DNA from: a bacterium
GTDB taxonomy: Bacteria; CAIWAD01
Reading direction: 5' to 3'
NCBI GenBank assembly: GCA_030685015.1
Contig: JAUXWS010000099.1
Span: forward strand, 1-62,166
Length of the DNA stretch: 62,166 bases
The notes under the pieces were generated by a model. It ran no database searches. It saw nothing but the letters and a program-made list of their open reading frames with translations, and had not been told where the DNA came from. Shown here piece by piece: positions 7,176 through 46,703 of the stretch. Each line of letters begins with the position of its first letter. The first letter of the stretch is position 1. A program made the position numbers and the translations under genes.

Positions 7176-7180
7176 GATCA

Positions 7181-38491: not shown

Positions 38492-39805
38492 ATGGACCTT
38501 TCCCTCATCCAGCGCGCCGGCTGCGTCGGCATGGGCGGCGCCGGATTCCCCGCCCACGTCAAGCTGCAGGCCCGGGTCGACACCCTGCTCATCAACGCCG
38601 CCGAGTGCGAACCCCTGCTGCGCAAGGACAACATGGTCATGCAGCACTTCGCCGAGGGCGTGGCCCAGGGCACGCGCCTGGCGGCGGAGGCCACCGGCGC
38701 CGGGCGGGTCATCGTGGGGATCAAGGGCAAGAACAAGGCCTCGATCGAGGCCATGCGCGCCACCAGCCTGGGTCCGGCCGGCAGCGGCCTTTACGAGCTG
38801 GGCATCCTGGGGGATTTCTACCCCGCCGGCGACGAGGTGACCCTCGTCTACGAGCTGACCGGCCGCGTCGTCCCCCCCGCCGGCCTGCCCCTCGATGTGG
38901 GCGTGGTGGTGCTCAACAACGAGACGGCCCTCACCCTCCACGAGGCGGCCCAGGGCCGGCCCGTCACCCACTCCTTCCTCACCGTCTCCGGCGAGGTGCG
39001 CCGGCCCATGACCGTGCGCGCCCCGGTGGGCACGCCCTTCCGCGACCTGATCGAGGCGGCGGGCGGCACGCGGCTGAAGGACTGGGTCATCCTCGACGGC
39101 GGACCGATGATGGGCCGCATCGTGGAGGATCCGTCCACGCCGGTGGTGAAGACGACCAGCGGCGTCATCGTCCTGCCCCGCGACCATCCCTATGTGGGGC
39201 AGGAGCTGCGCAGCCGCGAGGCCAAGTACCGCATCGGAAAGTCCGTGTGCGACCAGTGCAGCCTCTGCACCCAGCTCTGCCCGCGCTACCTGCTGGGCCA
39301 CCCGCTGGAGCCTCACCAGGCCATGCGCCAGCAGTTCGTGGTGGACTTCCCCGCCCACAGCCGCTGGGGCCAGATCTGCTGCGAGTGCGGCATCTGCACG
39401 CTTTTCGCCTGTCCGGAGGGTCTCTTCCCCCGCGAGGCCTGCCAGGACTCCAAGCGCAGCCTGGCCGCCCTGGGCGAGCGCTTCAACGGCCCCAAGACCG
39501 TCACGCCGCACCCCATGTACGAGCACCGGCGCCTCCCCACCAAGAAGCTGCTCGCCCGCCTGGGCCTGACGCGCTTCGAGCACGACGCGCCCTGGACGGA
39601 CTGGCCCGGCTCGGCCAGCCCGCTGCGCCTGCTCATGCGCCAGCACATCGGCGTCCCGGCCGAAACCCTCGTGCGCGAGGGCGACACGGTGGCCGCCGGC
39701 CAGCTGGTGGCGGCGCCGCCCGAAGGCAAGTTGGGCGCCCCCGTCCACACGCCCCGCGCCGGCCGCGTGGCCAGCGTCACCCAAGCGGAGATCGTCGTCC
39801 AATGA
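38492..39805 (+). CDS. pduS: PduS-like flavin/Fe-S electron-transfer protein (RnfC-like)
   Basis: A 437-aa protein of the PduS/RnfC group. The N-terminal RnfC domain has GCVGMGGAGFPAHVK, the NADH/FMN-binding glycine motif, and INAAECEPLLRKDN. Two [4Fe-4S] motifs follow: CDQCSLCTQLCP (from residue 253) and CCECGICTLFACP (from residue 296). A C-terminal biotinyl-like sandwich hybrid is present. PduS reduces cobalamin or passes electrons across a microcompartment shell. ATG 38492 is preceded by GGAAGG. It overlaps the shell gene that follows. No diol dehydratase or aldehyde dehydrogenase gene lies beside it, so the encapsulated pathway is unknown. Confidence 0.86.
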   Translation: MDLSLIQRAGCVGMGGAGFPAHVKLQARVDTLLINAAECEPLLRKDNMVMQHFAEGVAQGTRLAAEATGAGRVIVGIKGKNKASIEAMRATSLGPAGSGLYELGILGDFYPAGDEVTLVYELTGRVVPPAGLPLDVGVVVLNNETALTLHEAAQGRPVTHSFLTVSGEVRRPMTVRAPVGTPFRDLIEAAGGTRLKDWVILDGGPMMGRIVEDPSTPVVKTTSGVIVLPRDHPYVGQELRSREAKYRIGKSVCDQCSLCTQLCPRYLLGHPLEPHQAMRQQFVVDFPAHSRWGQICCECGICTLFACPEGLFPREACQDSKRSLAALGERFNGPKTVTPHPMYEHRRLPTKKLLARLGLTRFEHDAPWTDWPGSASPLRLLMRQHIGVPAETLVREGDTVAAGQLVAAPPEGKLGAPVHTPRAGRVASVTQAEIVVQ

Positions 39806-40389
39806 TGCGCAACCAGCCCAGCCAGTTCACGCCGGAGCGCCCCACCAGCGCCGTGGGCATCATCGAGTTCAGCAGCATCGCGCGCGGCATCGAGGCGGCC
39901 GATCACATGCTGAAGACGGCGGAGATCCGCCTGCTTGTGTCACGGACCATCTGCCCGGGCAAGCACATGAGCCTGATCGCCGGCGACACGGCGGCGGTGC
40001 GCAGCGCCATCGACGCCGCCGAGGTGCTGGGCGAGCGGGAGGTGGTGGACACCTTCGTCATTCCCAACCTCCATCCCGACGTCATCCCGGCGGTGGAGGG
40101 CACCGTCATGTACGGCGCCATGGAGGCGCTGGGCATCATCGAGAGCTTCTCGGTGGCCAGCCTGATCGAGGCCGCCGACCAGGCCGCCAAGACAGCCCAG
40201 GTCAAGCTGCTGGAGATCCGTCTGGCCATGGCCATCGGCGGCAAGGCCTTCGTCACGCTGACTGGGGAGGTGGCGGCGGTGCGCGCCGCGGTGGAGGCGG
40301 GCGCGGCCAAAGTGAGCGCCAAGGGCCTGCTCGTGAACAAGGTGGTGATCGCCAATCCGCGGCCGGAAGTGATGCGCGACCTGATTTGA
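39802..40389 (+). CDS. pduT: PduT-like tandem BMC-domain shell protein
   Basis: A 195-aa microcompartment shell protein with two BMC folds: AVGIIEFSSIARGIEAADHM (from about residue 17) and ALGIIESFSVASLIEAADQA (from about residue 111). Such proteins form pseudohexameric trimers. TICPGKH (Cys51) matches the pore cysteine that binds a [4Fe-4S] cluster in PduT, which pairs functionally with PduS. The start overlaps the PduS stop (ATGATG). Its C-terminal 37 codons recur in altered form downstream as a remnant. Confidence 0.9.
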   Translation: MMRNQPSQFTPERPTSAVGIIEFSSIARGIEAADHMLKTAEIRLLVSRTICPGKHMSLIAGDTAAVRSAIDAAEVLGEREVVDTFVIPNLHPDVIPAVEGTVMYGAMEALGIIESFSVASLIEAADQAAKTAQVKLLEIRLAMAIGGKAFVTLTGEVAAVRAAVEAGAAKVSAKGLLVNKVVIANPRPEVMRDLI

Positions 40390-40410
40390 TCCATGCCCGG
40401 TTTGATTCGC

Positions 40411-40446
40411 CAATCCGCCCACGGAGGTGATGCGGGACCTGATCTG
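40411..40446 (+). pseudogene. Fragment of a BMC gene 3' end (13 codons)
   Basis: The frame reads ANPPTEVMRDLI-stop, nearly identical to the end of the PduT-like protein (ANPRPEVMRDLI) but with differing codons and one or two altered residues. It begins just 22 bp after the pduT stop. It is read as the last trace of a second shell gene. Confidence 0.55.
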
Positions 40447-40520
40447 ATTTATTGAGTTTTTCCCCATCCGCACCAACGGATGACCACGGTGCGACCTCGT
40501 GCAGTGAGTTGGAGTGCATC

Positions 40521-40940
40521 ATGGCCCTCTCCCACAGCGACTTGCGGAAGGCGTTGGAGCTTCTGGACCAGTACCAAAAGGCAGTGGCCCAAGCCGGACC
40601 CGACACGGATCCCATCTTATTGGAAGCGGCCCGAGCCGGCGTGGTGCAGCATTTCGAGATCGCGTACGAATCCAGTTGGAAGCTCATCCAGCGCTGGCTG
40701 CAAGAGAACGGCAAGCGGGAACAGGCGGAAACACCCCGTTCCCGCGCGGACTTGTTCCGGGAAGCTGCCCGTTCGGGATTGATTGACAACCCCTTGCAGT
40801 GGATCGACTACGCCAAGGCGCGCAATCTCACGTCGCACACCTACGATAAGCGGGACGCCCAGGTGGCCTTCGATCTTGCCGAGCCGTTTGTGAAGGACGC
40901 CACGCGCCTGTTGGATAACCTGGCCGCCCGTCATGATTGA
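40521..40940 (+). CDS. HEPN-family protein (HI0074-like), toxin of a TA pair
   Basis: A 139-aa alpha-helical protein of the HI0074 nucleotidyltransferase-substrate-binding family. The HEPN RNase-type motif Rx4H is intact as Arg101-His106 in KARNLTSHTYD. GVVQHFEIAYESSWKLIQRW is the typical first helices. ATG 40521 follows GGAGTGCATC. It overlaps the MNT gene by 8 bp. HEPN/MNT pairs act as toxin-antitoxins in which the MNT partner silences the HEPN RNase, often by AMPylation. Confidence 0.85.
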   Translation: MALSHSDLRKALELLDQYQKAVAQAGPDTDPILLEAARAGVVQHFEIAYESSWKLIQRWLQENGKREQAETPRSRADLFREAARSGLIDNPLQWIDYAKARNLTSHTYDKRDAQVAFDLAEPFVKDATRLLDNLAARHD

Positions 40941-41232
40941 CCTGCCCATTGAGCAGCTTGAGGAGGTGCGCCGCATCCTCAAATTTGTCGTGCCCGGGTA
41001 CAAGGCCCTGGTGTTCGGGTCGCGGGTTAGCGGCAAGGCGGAGCGCTTCTCAGACTTGGATCTGGTGGTCGTGGGGCCGGAACGGCTTGACTTCCGCCTC
41101 CTGGAACGCCTGCGCAACACCTTCTCCATCAGCGACCTGCCCATCACCGTGGACGTGTCGGACTGGCACCGACTCTCCCCAGAGTTTCGCTCCCTGGTCG
41201 AGGCTCAATGCGAGGAGTTGCCGTTGGACTGA
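40933..41232 (+). CDS. MNT-type nucleotidyltransferase antitoxin
   Basis: A 99-aa minimal nucleotidyltransferase (HI0073-like). The active-site motif is FGSRVSGKAERFSDLDLVVV with Gly29-Ser30 and metal-binding Asp41/Asp43; a third acidic residue lies in ITVDVSDW. It overlaps the HEPN gene. It is expected to nucleotidylate and neutralise the HEPN protein. A BMC gene remnant begins right at its stop codon. Confidence 0.87.
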   Translation: MIDLPIEQLEEVRRILKFVVPGYKALVFGSRVSGKAERFSDLDLVVVGPERLDFRLLERLRNTFSISDLPITVDVSDWHRLSPEFRSLVEAQCEELPLD

Positions 41233-41233
41233 G

Positions 41234-41342
41234 GTGCGCGCCGCGGTGGAGGCGGGGGCGGCCAAGGTCTCGGCCAAGGGCCTGCTCGTGAACAAAGTGG
41301 TGATCGCCAATCCGCGGCCGGAAGTGATGCGCGACCTGATCT
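41234..41342 (+). pseudogene. BMC shell-gene remnant (37 codons of a C-terminus)
   Basis: The frame reads EVRAAVEAGAAKVSAKGLLV then NKVVIANPRPEVMRDLI, identical in protein to the end of the PduT-like gene. The DNA differs at several silent sites (for example AAAGTGAGCGCC versus AAGGTCTCGGCC in the same six residues). It therefore comes from a diverged paralogue rather than a recent copy. The stop is lost (ATCTGG). Everything upstream of it has been replaced by the TA pair. Confidence 0.7.
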
Positions 41343-41442
41343 GGGATTTCTGTTGGCTGGATGTCCTTTGTTGTTGTGGATGTAGATTGCAGTGTGACAC
41401 AATTCACATCGGTTACAAGCAAGCCGGCCATGGGGTGGGACC

Positions 41443-44259
41443 ATGACACGATCGACCTGGCCTTATCCTGGCTCCCGCTGGTGGAAGATTGATCTCCATA
41501 CGCACACTCCAGCCTCACTGGACACCGCCGCCTGGCAGGCCGCTGTTGGAACAACAAATGAAATCACTCCGGAGAAGTGGCTGATTCGCTGGATGTTGGC
41601 AGGGCTCGATGCTGTCGCAATCACTGATCACAACACAGGCGCTTGGATCGACCCGCTGAAGTCAGCCTACTCCGCGATGAAAGCGTCGGCCGACGCAGGA
41701 TCGCCGCCCGACGGCTTCCGCGAGCTGACGCTCTTTCCCGGTGTCGAGATCAGCGTGCAGGGTGGCTGGCACCTGCTGGCGATCTTCGGTCCCGAAGCGA
41801 CGACGGAGACGGTCACGCGCCTGCTGGGTCTTGTGGACTATGGCGGACAGTCCGGGGACAGCGATGGCGTGACTCGCACCGGAGCAGCGGAAGTCGTGCG
41901 TGCCGTGCACGAGGCCCGTGGGCTGGCAATTCCCGCCCATGCGGATCAGGGCAAGGGGCTTCTGCAATGCGAGCCTGGCACTCGCAGCTCACGGCTCGAT
42001 CCTAACACGATCCGCGCCGTACTCGCCGAGAGTGACCTGCTGGCAATGGAGTGGGTCGATCCCGATCTACAAGCGCCGGCGTTATACGATGAGGGAGGTC
42101 ATCGACACGCCCGTGTGCTGGGCAGTGACAGCCACAGCTTCCAGGGCAGCGCCGTGCCAGGCTCGCGCTTCACCTGGTTCAAGGCGGGAGCGCTCACGCT
42201 CGAAGGGCTGCGCCTTGCCCTGTTGGACGGCGATGGCGTGTCGGTTCGGCGCAGCGACGAGGAGCGCTTCGAAGCCTACCGCACACCGGGCCACTTCCTC
42301 AAGCGGCTGGAGATCCACGAGGCACGCGTGATGGGCCGTGGAGCCGCACAGGTGCTCGACTTCTCGCCCTACTGCAACGCGCTCATCGGCGGTCGCGGCA
42401 CGGGCAAGTCGACAGTGGTGCATGCGCTGAGGCTGGCGCTCCATCGGGATGGCGAAGTGCTCGATGGCCTGAGCGAGGAGTCCTCGCCCCATCGCGACTT
42501 CCGGCGCTTCAAGCAGACCGCGCAGGGACGCAGTGGCGAGGGCGCGCTGCGCGATGATACCGAGATTCGGCTGGTCTACTCCCGCGATGGCCTCGATCAC
42601 CGTCTGACCTACATGGCCGCCGATCACTCGGTGCGGATCGAAGACTTCGACGAAGCCACTGGCGACTGGCGCCTCGCGGGCAGTCAAGCCTTTGCCGCCG
42701 GCCGCTTTCCGGTGCGTCTGTTCTCGCAGGGGCAGATCGCCGCCATGGCCAGCGACGGCCGCCAGGCCCTGCTGACCGTGATCGACGAGGCTGAACCCAA
42801 GCTGCCCGCGCTCAAGCAGGGCTTCGAGGAGGCCAAGCGCAGCTACCTGGCCCTGCGCGCTCAGCAGCGGGAGCTGCAGGGGCGCCTGGCCGAAACGCCC
42901 GAACTCGAGCGCCGGCGGGACGAGCTGCAGCGCAAGCTGGCCGCTTTCGAACAGTCCCATCATGCCGAAGTGCTGATGGCCTTCCAGCAAGCCCAGCGCC
43001 AAGGGCGGGAGATCGAGGGTCTGCTGGAAGCCCTGAGCGATTATGCCCGGAGAATCGACGGACTCGATCAGGCACTGCTGCTGGATGACTGGCCGGAGGG
43101 CGTCTTCGATGCCACGACCGACGCGGACGCCTTGGCCTGGCGCGGCGAGGCGCAGGGTTCCCTCGACGAGACCAGACGCACGCTCCAGAGAGCGCGCGAA
43201 ACGCTCCGCACCGCGATCGTAAATTTGCAACGCGACGAGCGCCTCGAAGCCTGGCGCGCCAGAGCGGGGGCCGCGGGCCAGGCCTATGAGGCCTTGAAGA
43301 TGGCCTTGGCCGCTCAAGGCGTGGAAGACCCACAGGAATTCGGCCGGCTGGTGCAGGAACGCCAGCAGCTGGATGTGCAGCACAGGCAGTTCCAGGATCT
43401 AGAGCAGCGCCTCGAAGACCTGCGTAAGAAAATGGAAACTCAATGGACCCTGGTTCTTGACCGACGCGCGCAGATTTCTACCCAGCGCGAGGCCTTTCTC
43501 TCGACGAAGCTCGCGGCTAACGAATTTGTCCGCATGGAAGTTGTTCGATTCGGTTACGATGAGCGCATGCTTGAGAAGAGCCTGCGCGACCTGCTCGACG
43601 CATCGTCGCACTTCGCTTCCGACATCTGGAACGGGCAGGCAGGAAGGTCCGGTGCCGGACTGGTCTCCATACTCGCGCAAGGCACCGACCGTGATGCAGC
43701 GCTCGCCGACATCAAGCAGCGCTTGATTGGAGTCGATGCTGGCTTCGGCGGCCACTTCCACAATCATCTGCAAAAGAAGCTGAGCAGCCAGCCAGAATTC
43801 GCAGATCGGATCCAATGCTGGTTTCCCGAAGACGACCTGAAGATCGAGTACAGTCGGGGTGGGGGCGCTGGGTTTTCGCCCATCGGACAAGGCTCGGCCG
43901 GCCAGCGCGCGGCGGCTCTGCTGGCCTTTCTGCTGTCCTTTGGCGTGGAGCCGCTGATCCTGGACCAGCCCGAAGACGACCTCGACAATCAGATGATCTA
44001 CGATCTCGTCGTGAGACAGATTCGCGAGAACAAGCTCAGGCGCCAGCTGCTGACTGTCACGCACAATCCCAACATCGTGGTCAACGGCGATGCGGAACTC
44101 GTGCTCGCCTTCGAGTACAGCCGCGGACAGTGCCTTGTCAGGCGGGACCACTCGGGCTCGCTTCAGAACACCTCTGTGCGGAAGACAGTCTGCGATGTGA
44201 TGGAAGGCGGACATGAGGCCTTCGCCCGACGCTGGGCGAGACTGGGACGGGAGATATGA
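41443..44259 (+). CDS. TrlF-like PHP-domain ATPase (putative defence protein)
   Basis: A 938-aa protein with an N-terminal PHP phosphoesterase: DLHTHTP (His19, His21), ITDHNTG, FPGVEIS, a HADQGKG stretch and GSDSH, the complete metal set. It is joined to an SMC/RecF-like ATPase: Walker A GGRGTGKST (316-324), a long coiled coil (about 440-700, ELQGRLAETPELERRRDELQ), and the ABC-type Walker B ILDQPEDDLDNQ near residue 841, followed by a His switch in TVTHNPN. This is the TrlF arrangement. ATG 41443 follows GGGGTGGGA. The downstream gene starts 1 bp after its stop, so they form a pair. Relatives occur in defence islands; the target nucleic acid is unknown. Confidence 0.82.
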   Translation: MTRSTWPYPGSRWWKIDLHTHTPASLDTAAWQAAVGTTNEITPEKWLIRWMLAGLDAVAITDHNTGAWIDPLKSAYSAMKASADAGSPPDGFRELTLFPGVEISVQGGWHLLAIFGPEATTETVTRLLGLVDYGGQSGDSDGVTRTGAAEVVRAVHEARGLAIPAHADQGKGLLQCEPGTRSSRLDPNTIRAVLAESDLLAMEWVDPDLQAPALYDEGGHRHARVLGSDSHSFQGSAVPGSRFTWFKAGALTLEGLRLALLDGDGVSVRRSDEERFEAYRTPGHFLKRLEIHEARVMGRGAAQVLDFSPYCNALIGGRGTGKSTVVHALRLALHRDGEVLDGLSEESSPHRDFRRFKQTAQGRSGEGALRDDTEIRLVYSRDGLDHRLTYMAADHSVRIEDFDEATGDWRLAGSQAFAAGRFPVRLFSQGQIAAMASDGRQALLTVIDEAEPKLPALKQGFEEAKRSYLALRAQQRELQGRLAETPELERRRDELQRKLAAFEQSHHAEVLMAFQQAQRQGREIEGLLEALSDYARRIDGLDQALLLDDWPEGVFDATTDADALAWRGEAQGSLDETRRTLQRARETLRTAIVNLQRDERLEAWRARAGAAGQAYEALKMALAAQGVEDPQEFGRLVQERQQLDVQHRQFQDLEQRLEDLRKKMETQWTLVLDRRAQISTQREAFLSTKLAANEFVRMEVVRFGYDERMLEKSLRDLLDASSHFASDIWNGQAGRSGAGLVSILAQGTDRDAALADIKQRLIGVDAGFGGHFHNHLQKKLSSQPEFADRIQCWFPEDDLKIEYSRGGGAGFSPIGQGSAGQRAAALLAFLLSFGVEPLILDQPEDDLDNQMIYDLVVRQIRENKLRRQLLTVTHNPNIVVNGDAELVLAFEYSRGQCLVRRDHSGSLQNTSVRKTVCDVMEGGHEAFARRWARLGREI

Positions 44260-44260
44260 C

Positions 44261-45535
44261 ATGCGTCTGACAAAATCCGAGCTGCTCGAGAAGGTCCGTC
44301 TCGGCGAAGACTCGTACTTCGAGCTGAAAGAGGTGCGGTTTGCCGGCTCGAGGATCACGGGGCCCGACCAGAAGCCGCTGGCTGACGAACTCGCCGCCTT
44401 CGCGAATCTCCAAGGGGGCGTGCTCCTGCTGGGCGCGGACGACAAGACCCGGGAAGTCGTGGGCATTCCGCTGGACAAGCTCGACGCGGTCGAAGACTTG
44501 CTTCGTCAGGCGTGCCACGATTCCATCACGCCCCCCCTCAATGCGCTGATCGAGCGCACGACGCTGCCCGACAGCGCCGGTCGGGATCAACCTGTGATCG
44601 TGGTCGAGATTCTCCGCAGCCTGTTCGTCCACCAGAGCCCCTCTGGCTACCTGTGGCGGGCGGGCAGCAGCAAGCGGCCGATCCCTCCTGACAATTTGGC
44701 CAGTCTGTTCCAGCAACGCAGTCAGACCCGGCTCATCCGCTTCGACGAGCAAGTGGTGGCCGGCGCGAGTCTCGAAGAGCTGGAGCCATCGCTCTGCGAT
44801 CGCTTCGCCAGTGACCTTTCCCGGGACGAGCGCCCCGATCTGCTGAGAAAGCTGGCCATGGCGCGGGAAGACGATGACGGCGTGCTCAGGCCGACCGTGG
44901 CGGGCCTGCTGATGGGCAGCCGGGATTCCATCCGGCACCTGCCGAACGCGTTCATCCAAGCCGTCGCCTATCGTGGAACGAGCGTCGCCCAAGCGGGCTC
45001 CGCCTACCAGCTGGACGCGCGCGACATCACCGGCCCCTTGGACGAGCAGATTTTCGCCACCTGCGGGTTCGTGGACAAGAACATGAGCATAGGGGCGGTC
45101 AAGCGGAACGGGGGGCGGGAGGATCGACCCCAGTTCGATGCGCTGGCCGTCTTCGAAGCCGTGACCAATGCCGTCGCCCATCGGGATTATTCGATGGCGG
45201 GCAGCAAGATCCGACTGCGCCTGTTCGCGGACCGGCTGGAGATCTACTCCCCAGGTGCAATCCCCAACACGATGACGGTCGACAGTCTCCCCTATCGACA
45301 GGCGGCCCGCAATGAGGCACTGACCTCCTTGTTGGCCCGGTGTCCGGTGAGACCGCTCGGCGCTGGCGCCACCCAACCGCGCTCGCATATCATGGACAAG
45401 CGCGGCGAAGGAGTGCCGATTCTCTTGGCACGCAGCCAGGAGCTCTCAGGCCGCCGACCTGAATACCGAATGATCGACGATAGCGAGCTGCTATTGACGA
45501 TTTTTGGTACTCCCACTGAGGATCCGCATACCTGA
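44261..45535 (+). CDS. AlbA_2/Schlafen-type ATP-binding protein
   Basis: A 424-aa protein beginning at ATG 44261 behind GGGAGATATGAC. The N-terminal AlbA_2 (Schlafen) domain includes EDSYFELKEVRFAGSRITG, ADELAAFANLQGGVLLLGAD and the following DD, i.e. the acidic residues of the family. The C-terminal part is a GHKL-type ATPase-like domain (FEAVTNAVAHRDYSMAG, HATPase_c_4; IYSPGAIPN). Such proteins are often encoded in defence loci or as putative transcriptional regulators. Its coupling to the TrlF-like gene suggests a joint two-gene system; this is inference. Confidence 0.8.
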   Translation: MRLTKSELLEKVRLGEDSYFELKEVRFAGSRITGPDQKPLADELAAFANLQGGVLLLGADDKTREVVGIPLDKLDAVEDLLRQACHDSITPPLNALIERTTLPDSAGRDQPVIVVEILRSLFVHQSPSGYLWRAGSSKRPIPPDNLASLFQQRSQTRLIRFDEQVVAGASLEELEPSLCDRFASDLSRDERPDLLRKLAMAREDDDGVLRPTVAGLLMGSRDSIRHLPNAFIQAVAYRGTSVAQAGSAYQLDARDITGPLDEQIFATCGFVDKNMSIGAVKRNGGREDRPQFDALAVFEAVTNAVAHRDYSMAGSKIRLRLFADRLEIYSPGAIPNTMTVDSLPYRQAARNEALTSLLARCPVRPLGAGATQPRSHIMDKRGEGVPILLARSQELSGRRPEYRMIDDSELLLTIFGTPTEDPHT

Positions 45536-45551: not shown

Positions 45552-46703
45552 TCAGGCGGGTGTGATGGCCAACCTCTCCCGCAGCAGATCGGCGTAGGCG
45601 CGCGGCTCGGCGGGCAGGCCGAAGAGGCCCAGACCGCGCACCAGATGCTCCAGCTCGCCCTGCGCCGCCTGGGGATCCTCCCCCTCGCGCAGCACCAGCT
45701 CAAGCTCCACGTAGGTGCCCAGCCCGGCCACCGTGTCCAGGTGCAGGCGTGTGCGACCCAGGAGGACCACTTCGCGACCCTTGCGCACCAGCACGTCCAG
45801 CCCGTGCTCGCGGACGAGGCGCTCGTGCAGGGCGTCGGGATCGCCCACTTGCTCCAGCTCATAGGCGGAGAGGCGCGGCCCCCCCTCGTCGGCCCGCGTG
45901 TAGCGGATCAGCTCGGCGTGGTTGTGGGCCTGGCCGTCGGGCAGGTGGCGCGTCTCGCGGCGCAGCTTGAGCCGCTCCCCGCCGCCCACGGCGTAGAACT
46001 GGTCGTCTTGGCTGAGGCGGCCGTGCAGCTTGCCGCCCAGGGTCCCGGCGCGCCGCTTGATCTCGTCCAGGGCGCGGTGGGGGAACTTCAGCTCCAGGTT
46101 GCGCCCGCACTGCGGGGCGCTGGACAGATCCAGGGTGGGGGTGTCCATGGGGGCACTCCTCGTCGTTGGCCTTTTGCCTTTGTCGCCACGTGGCGGGAGG
46201 GCGGGCGCCTCCCGCTCCCCGCCATCCGGTCCCCGCCGCTCCTCCGTGTCGCCGCGCCGCGCCCGCTCGGCGGCGGCCACGGCCAAGCGGTCGCAGCGCT
46301 CGTTGTCGGCGTGGCCGGCGTGGCCCCGCACCCAGCGCCACTGGATGTCGTGCAGACCCGCCTGCTCCCAGAGGGCGCGCCACAGGTCCTCGTTCTTCAC
46401 CGGGCCGCCCGTCGAGGTGCGCCAGCCCTTGCGCATCCAGCCGTGGATCCAGCTGGTGATGCCGTTCCGAAGGTACTGGCTGTCGGTGGTCAATTCCACG
46501 CGGCTGGGTTCTTCCAGGTCCTCGAGCGCGCGCAGGGCGGCCATCATCTCCATGCGGTTGTTGGTGGTGGCCGTCTCGCCGCCGGACAGCTCGCGCAGGC
46601 CCCGCGGGCCACGGATGAGGGCGGCCCAGCCCCCCGGCCCGGGGTTGCCCTGGCAGGCGCCATCGGTGACGATGACGACGGCGGGACGCTCAGCGGCGCT
46701 CAT
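45552..46703 (-). CDS. rnhA: RNase HI fused to a CYTH domain
   Basis: A 383-aa fusion. Residues 1-150 are a complete RNase HI that cuts RNA in RNA:DNA hybrids, with catalytic Asp14, Glu52, Asp74 and Asp133 (TDGACQGNPG, NNRMEMMAAL, TDSQYL, HADNERCD). A charged linker of ~35 residues follows. Residues 190-383 are a CYTH domain (NLELKFP, LKLRRETRHLPDG, VELELVL), the tunnel fold of adenylyl cyclase IV and triphosphatases. An internal ATG at 46148 (Met186) has its own AGGAG 7 nt upstream, so a separate CYTH protein may also be made. The start overlaps the rlmI-like gene by 14 bp. It is the last gene of the long minus-strand run. Confidence 0.85.
   Translation of the reverse strand: MSAAERPAVVIVTDGACQGNPGPGGWAALIRGPRGLRELSGGETATTNNRMEMMAALRALEDLEEPSRVELTTDSQYLRNGITSWIHGWMRKGWRTSTGGPVKNEDLWRALWEQAGLHDIQWRWVRGHAGHADNERCDRLAVAAAERARRGDTEERRGPDGGEREAPALPPRGDKGKRPTTRSAPMDTPTLDLSSAPQCGRNLELKFPHRALDEIKRRAGTLGGKLHGRLSQDDQFYAVGGGERLKLRRETRHLPDGQAHNHAELIRYTRADEGGPRLSAYELEQVGDPDALHERLVREHGLDVLVRKGREVVLLGRTRLHLDTVAGLGTYVELELVLREGEDPQAAQGELEHLVRGLGLFGLPAEPRAYADLLRERLAITPA

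Follow-up and report, generated by a model that had tools for sequence, protein, structure and literature searches.

The pduS-pduT pair and the genes behind it

In the window, the whole 62,166-nucleotide stretch of DNA analyzed here, a pduS-like and a pduT-like gene are followed by two further copies of the pduT 3' end and by four genes, up to a conserved border gene on the opposite strand. Five genomes were available from the phylum, namely G000, the genome of the window, and G001 to G004; G001 and G002 belong to the same genus as G000, and G003 belongs to the same family. The features are as follows.

38492..39805, plus strand: pduS-like gene, an RnfC/PduS-type flavin and 4Fe-4S protein (Complex1_51K, SLBB, RnfC_N, and Fer4_17 domains)
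39802..40389, plus strand: pduT-like BMC-T shell gene, intact (PF00936 twice)
40278..40388, plus strand: main pduT 3' end, taken as native and used as the reference for the copies; its after-stop sequence is common to G002
40407..40448, plus strand: copy 2, partial, 13 codons, noncoding and decayed (42 nt, 86% identity, 58-nt period)
40521..40940, plus strand: HEPN toxin-like gene (HI0074 subfamily, HepT-like), RX4HXY intact
40933..41232, plus strand: MNT nucleotidyltransferase gene (MntA-like antitoxin), GSX10DXD intact
41233..41343, plus strand: copy 3, a 111-nt copy of the pduT 3' end, stop lost (93% identity)
41443..44259, plus strand: gene for a TrlF-family ATPase (Ppl-like anti-phage protein; NF045780, 589.6 bits, cutoff 350; PADLOC Ppl)
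44213..45535, plus strand: gene for a Schlafen AlbA_2/HATPase_c_4 protein (domain profiles), overlapping the trlF end
45552..46703, minus strand: RNase H-CYTH fusion gene, which bounds the insertion site on the right and is conserved in G001 and G002

Domain and family profiles confirmed the identities that the first-pass annotation had given to the PduS- and PduT-like genes, both of which are intact. The pduS-like product scores 248.3 bits against the rnfC subfamily model (cutoff, 245.95). The PduT-like product contains two BMC domains, the only ones in the window, and a cysteine in the motif ICPGK (read by eye), a pore cysteine for an Fe-S cluster being a trait of PduT. Since its score of 131 bits is below the PduT equivalog cutoff (TIGR02526, 250.3 bits), we name the gene PduT-like. 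Identity of pduT to its counterparts is 94% in G002, 89% in G001, and 78% in G003.

The insert behind pduT spans 5.2 kb and carries toxin-antitoxin, TrlF/Ppl-like, and Schlafen-AlbA genes, with a GC content of 0.61 to 0.64 versus 0.71 to 0.73 in the flanks. A toxin-antitoxin pair does occupy the gap between the copies, as had been proposed, and consists of a HEPN and an MNT gene with both motifs intact, the HEPN motif RX4-6H(XY) reading RNLTSHTY and the MNT motif GSX9-10DXD reading GSRVSGKAERFSDLD. In gene order, overlap, and RX4HXY and GSX10DXD motifs, the pair resembles the type VII HEPN/MNT system HepT/MntA, but it belongs to the HI0074 subfamily (70.3 versus a cutoff of 55.8) and remains under the curated NCBIfam HepT and MntA equivalog cutoffs of 60 bits each (27.6 and 29.4 bits). 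The TrlF-family gene misses the Ppl equivalog cutoff of 1000 with a score of 471.6 and is present only in G000 among the five genomes. Presumably, both the toxin-antitoxin pair and the TrlF gene act in phage defense and are unconnected with the compartment. The HepT-like toxin had no match on viral contigs, and plasmid matches were found only at <60% identity.

Copies of the pduT 3' end and the same site in relatives

Self-alignment located the two extra 3' ends at the positions assigned to them earlier (E-values of 9e-43 for the main end versus copy 3 and 5e-8 for copy 2 versus copy 3). Over 36 codons, copy 3 and pduT are distinguished by 8 nucleotide changes, which fall in 6 codons; all eight are silent, including a serine change from AGC to TCG, and the same 36 residues are encoded, while the stop codon has changed from TGA to TGG. 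When eight changes were placed at random, all were silent in only 5 of 200,000 trials, so that copy 3 descends from another functional, translated pduT. Four codon choices are common to copy 3 and the pduT of the window, against G002 and G001, and these point to a close relative as its source. Thus, the first-pass annotation rightly described a copy with the same protein sequence and silent DNA differences, and rightly traced it to a diverged gene under selection instead of a recent duplication; its choice of a paralogue as that gene gives way to a pduT allele of a relative as the likelier origin. Copy 3 was probably imported from such a relative along with the defense cargo. As the sole upstream start in its frame falls inside MntA, copy 3 is most likely untranslated, and it is most likely the scar of an imported pduT allele.

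The after-stop sequence common with G002 sits behind the main pduT copy, and the sequence 3' of copy 3 resembles neither the window's nor the G002 after-stop sequence. From this arrangement in two genomes, we infer that the main copy is native and copy 3 imported. A diversity-generating retroelement was considered as well and rejected, since the copy differences are not adenine-specific and the island genes include no reverse transcriptase. Away from this locus, a DNA search of the five genomes for further gene-end copies gave only weak matches.

The same place in the relatives bears directly on the first reading of the locus, in which at least three tandem shell genes were once present and have been reduced to their ends. 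Three gene ends in one orientation, one of them silently diverged, are what such an array could leave behind. However, the search for an intact BMC array returned one pduS-pduT pair at this place in each of the three nearest relatives (G001, G002, and G003). In G001, the RNase H-CYTH gene lies about 50 bp behind pduT, so that the site is empty; a decayed second copy sought there scored no better than shuffled sequence (1,545 of 2,000 shuffles reached the score). In G003, the contig ends 270 bp after pduT. No shell-gene remains lie between the copies or elsewhere at the locus beyond the two BMC domains of pduT itself; copy 2 belongs to an out-of-gene 58-nt tandem common to G002; and copy 3 and the pduT of the window resemble each other more than either resembles G001, a closeness that does not suit an old paralogue. 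We therefore find a reduced tandem array scarcely credible.

The window and G002 align continuously through pduS, pduT, the after-stop spacer, and copy 2 (1,962 columns, 86.8%). In G002, the pduT 3' end occurs three times in an exact 58-nt tandem, with which copy 2 aligns position for position; behind this tandem follow a diverged HEPN/MNT pair, GTGATGTCCGACCTGATC, a CreD gene, and the RNase H-CYTH gene. The stretch GTGATGTCCGACCTGATC behind MntA is identical to the pduT end at 16 of 18 positions, and none of the 361 other stretches of the contig matches so well. An assembly artifact, in which pduT and the toxin-antitoxin pair of one strain were joined to the pduT end and TrlF island of another, would account for a copy 3 that looks like another strain's allele, in a genome of 105 contigs. 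Yet in G002, which was assembled independently, the tandem is likewise followed by the pair and then by a remnant of the gene end, and no long repeat spans the join at the MntA stop; we consider such an artifact very unlikely.

It is also conceivable that the repeats of the gene end have a function of their own, for example as a hairpin setting the 3' end or the stability of the pduS-pduT messenger. In G002, where the copies are exact, the spacer folds with the beginning of the copy behind it (L035:9833-9872) into a strong 40-nt hairpin (z = -3.7), matched in stability by 0 of 200 shuffles. The corresponding stretch of the window, however, is not stable (z = +0.46), G001 shows nothing of the kind, no Rfam family or other Rfam element was found, and other pduT loci are without the repeat, which makes this explanation highly improbable. 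At pduT loci of other phyla, searched up to 8 kb downstream, there were no comparable 3' copies, two of the loci having weak short matches.

The MntA proteins at the site are 69.7% identical between the window and G002 and about 40% identical to paralogues, and they thus look orthologous. The HepT proteins are 45% identical between the two genomes and 43.5% identical to a paralogue, and two other orthologous HepT pairs are at 64% to 65%, so that HepT at this site would have been either exchanged or subject to faster evolution. Across the five genomes, HepT/MntA-type toxins were matched only in G000 and G002, and PF08780 had no match in G001, G003, and G004. Two other pairs in G000 and G002 are without comparable repeats, and we dismissed flanking repeats as a habit of such toxin-antitoxin pairs.

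A second HEPN/MNT pair, without flanking repeats, occupies a conserved place beside an M20-peptidase-like gene in G000 (L097:4230-4960, contig C19) and G002 (L099:6050-7100, contig C70). On contig C206 of G002 (L100:6678-7199), the reading frame of a HepT-like gene continues into the rear portion of an MntA-like protein; the GSX10DXD part is missing, and the whole reads as an internally deleted toxin-antitoxin pair. Its intact counterpart is on contig C41 of G000 (L098, near 7484), both lying behind a conserved MutL-like gene (of the MutS/glutamate-mutase-associated type, by eye).

Probable insertion and recombination behind an intact shell gene

Taken together, we consider it probable that an insertion hotspot lies behind pduT and that recombination there relies on the homology supplied by the pduT 3' end. 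This reading draws on the empty site in G001, the other content of the site in G002, the lower GC content of the insert, the silent differences of copy 3, the 18-nt remnant in G002, a TrlF gene without a match in the four relatives, and the lack of copies at other pduT loci. The first-pass annotation had offered the shell-gene end as an insertion site as its alternative, and it is this alternative that the empty and differently filled sites support.

We propose the following order of events, which is drawn from two genomes. First, as both genomes show, the pduT 3' end was duplicated in 58-nt tandem in the common ancestor of the window lineage and G002; this tandem has decayed in the window and stands as three exact copies in G002. 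Second, a HEPN/MNT pair, whose position behind the tandem is seen in both genomes, would have settled there, with an MntA that is apparently orthologous and a HepT that diverged further or was swapped; given HepT at 45% identity, the pair may have arrived twice. Third, a piece of the pduT end would already have been located 3' of the pair in the ancestor, with the short remnant of 18 nt left in G002. Finally, the window lineage may have acquired, by recombination at this point, DNA from a close relative whose own pduT end was joined to TrlF and Schlafen-AlbA genes; the donor gene end would have stayed as the scar now seen as copy 3, and pduT itself remained intact. No donor molecule or donor genome was found, the copy-3 stretch being absent from the plasmids and phages searched, and pduT relatives were not found on viral contigs.

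A site-specific integrative element that uses the pduT 3' end for attachment, with its integrase lost or acting in trans, would likewise produce a second gene end. Such an element would bring a replacement gene end and leave the displaced host end at its far side. Consistent with this, the copy extends up to the second stop-codon base, the pduT gene is complete, and only silent differences are seen; a direct repeat of the target-gene end (111 nt) together with a whole pduT is what gene restoration expects. There is a precedent in prophage e14 or phage 21 at icd of Escherichia coli, which integrate at the 3' end of a protein gene and restore it. There, too, the target gene is kept whole, and on the far side of the foreign DNA is a second 3' end whose differences are mostly silent. 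In the window, however, domain and family profiles detected no integrase or recombinase among the four island genes, the 111-nt repeat flanks the toxin-antitoxin part only and not the TrlF part, and two of the three copies form a plain 58-nt tandem, a further difference from e14 or phage 21 at icd. Moreover, the native after-stop sequence stays behind the main copy and not the distal one, which is the opposite of simple displacement. A tRNA attachment site was not found either, the sole tRNA of the window being at position 7180, and literature searches returned nothing usable on the e14/icd precedent or on toxin-antitoxin pairs with duplicated flanks. On balance, we regard an integrative element as unlikely.

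The hotspot that we favor could also be extended, with small cassettes of cargo and a pduT end moving between species of the genus and the pduT 3' end serving as a reusable landing pad. This we hold to be rather doubtful; if true, it would amount to cassette-like exchange by recombination that involves neither a dedicated integrase nor a dedicated attachment site.

Defense-gene insertion hotspots are found between conserved flanking genes. Similarly, the site described here has conserved borders (pduT and the RNase H-CYTH gene), one empty site, and differing contents in two others; it differs in that the 3' end of the border gene is repeated and one copy appears to be an imported allele. The feature is real and its cause probably of an ordinary kind, a site prone to insertion and recombination behind a shell gene that is itself intact: defense-type genes gather behind one such gene, apparently via recombination in its 3' end.

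A predicted dispersed sugar phosphate-type compartment

The first-pass annotation called the microcompartment locus eroded and stated that no enzymes of a known compartment were present. The latter is true of the locus, where no compartment enzyme adjoins pduS-pduT in the window, but not of the genome. In Riflebacteria and Proteiniclasticum, pduS-pduT homologues are grouped with hexamer, pentamer, and AldDH genes. G000 possesses a full shell set, with two BMC-H genes, both on contig C21, four BMC-P genes (two on C95, one on C74, and one on C36), and the BMC-T gene of the window (C99). A DeoC-type aldolase gene (PF01791; equivalog, 272.7 bits) lies beside the C74 BMC-P gene. The genes for PduL and an acylating, acetylating-type AldDH (nearest model TIGR02518, 599.6 bits, just below the cutoff of 620.1) are adjacent on C41, as they also are in G001 to G003. 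DeoC and RpiB (PF02502) were found in G000 to G003, with RpiB not adjoining shell genes as far as seen. Read by eye, DeoC has an N-terminal extension, SGDIVDRIVKEVLEQR, and AldDH a C-terminal tail, SDEEIDRIVKEFKG, and both look like encapsulation peptides.

No contig contains both a BMC-H and a BMC-P gene, and the parts stand at six separate places, namely C21, C36, C41, C74, C95, and the window (L038, L103, L109, L102, and L101 for the first five). Most of these genes are at some distance from the ends of their contigs. Exceptions are the genes on C74 and, to a lesser degree, the gene on C36; these lie close to contig ends and may adjoin one another in G000. The shell genes, DeoC, AldDH, and PduL were also found in G001, G002, and G003, again spread over separate contigs in each genome. 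Shell and enzyme genes thus survive, scattered and conserved in three relatives. Judged by gene content, the compartment is not lost; its machinery is dispersed over the genome. This corrects the false trail of a decaying organelle.

Two neighbors of shell genes were also noted. A phosphopentomutase (DeoB) gene (L101:9055-10242, C95) is about 1 kb from the two BMC-P genes and could feed deoxyribose 5-phosphate to DeoC. On C21 (L038:8031-10732), the two BMC-H genes lie behind a gene for a product with a uridine-kinase-like portion, which might point to a link with nucleoside breakdown.

The closest comparison is the sugar phosphate utilization (SPU) microcompartment (PMC4207490, PMC8217296). 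Like it, G000 encodes DeoC, RpiB, an acylating AldDH, PduL, PduS, and shell genes, but it has these parts at six places and no main locus. As predicted from its genes, the compartment is of the SPU type by its parts and not by locus definition, because no contig holds both hexamer and pentamer genes. This scattered yet conserved compartment is the most interesting by-product of our analysis: a survey that accepts only loci combining hexamer and pentamer genes would miss it, and a little-sampled phylum appears to encode a whole sugar phosphate-type microcompartment without a main locus.
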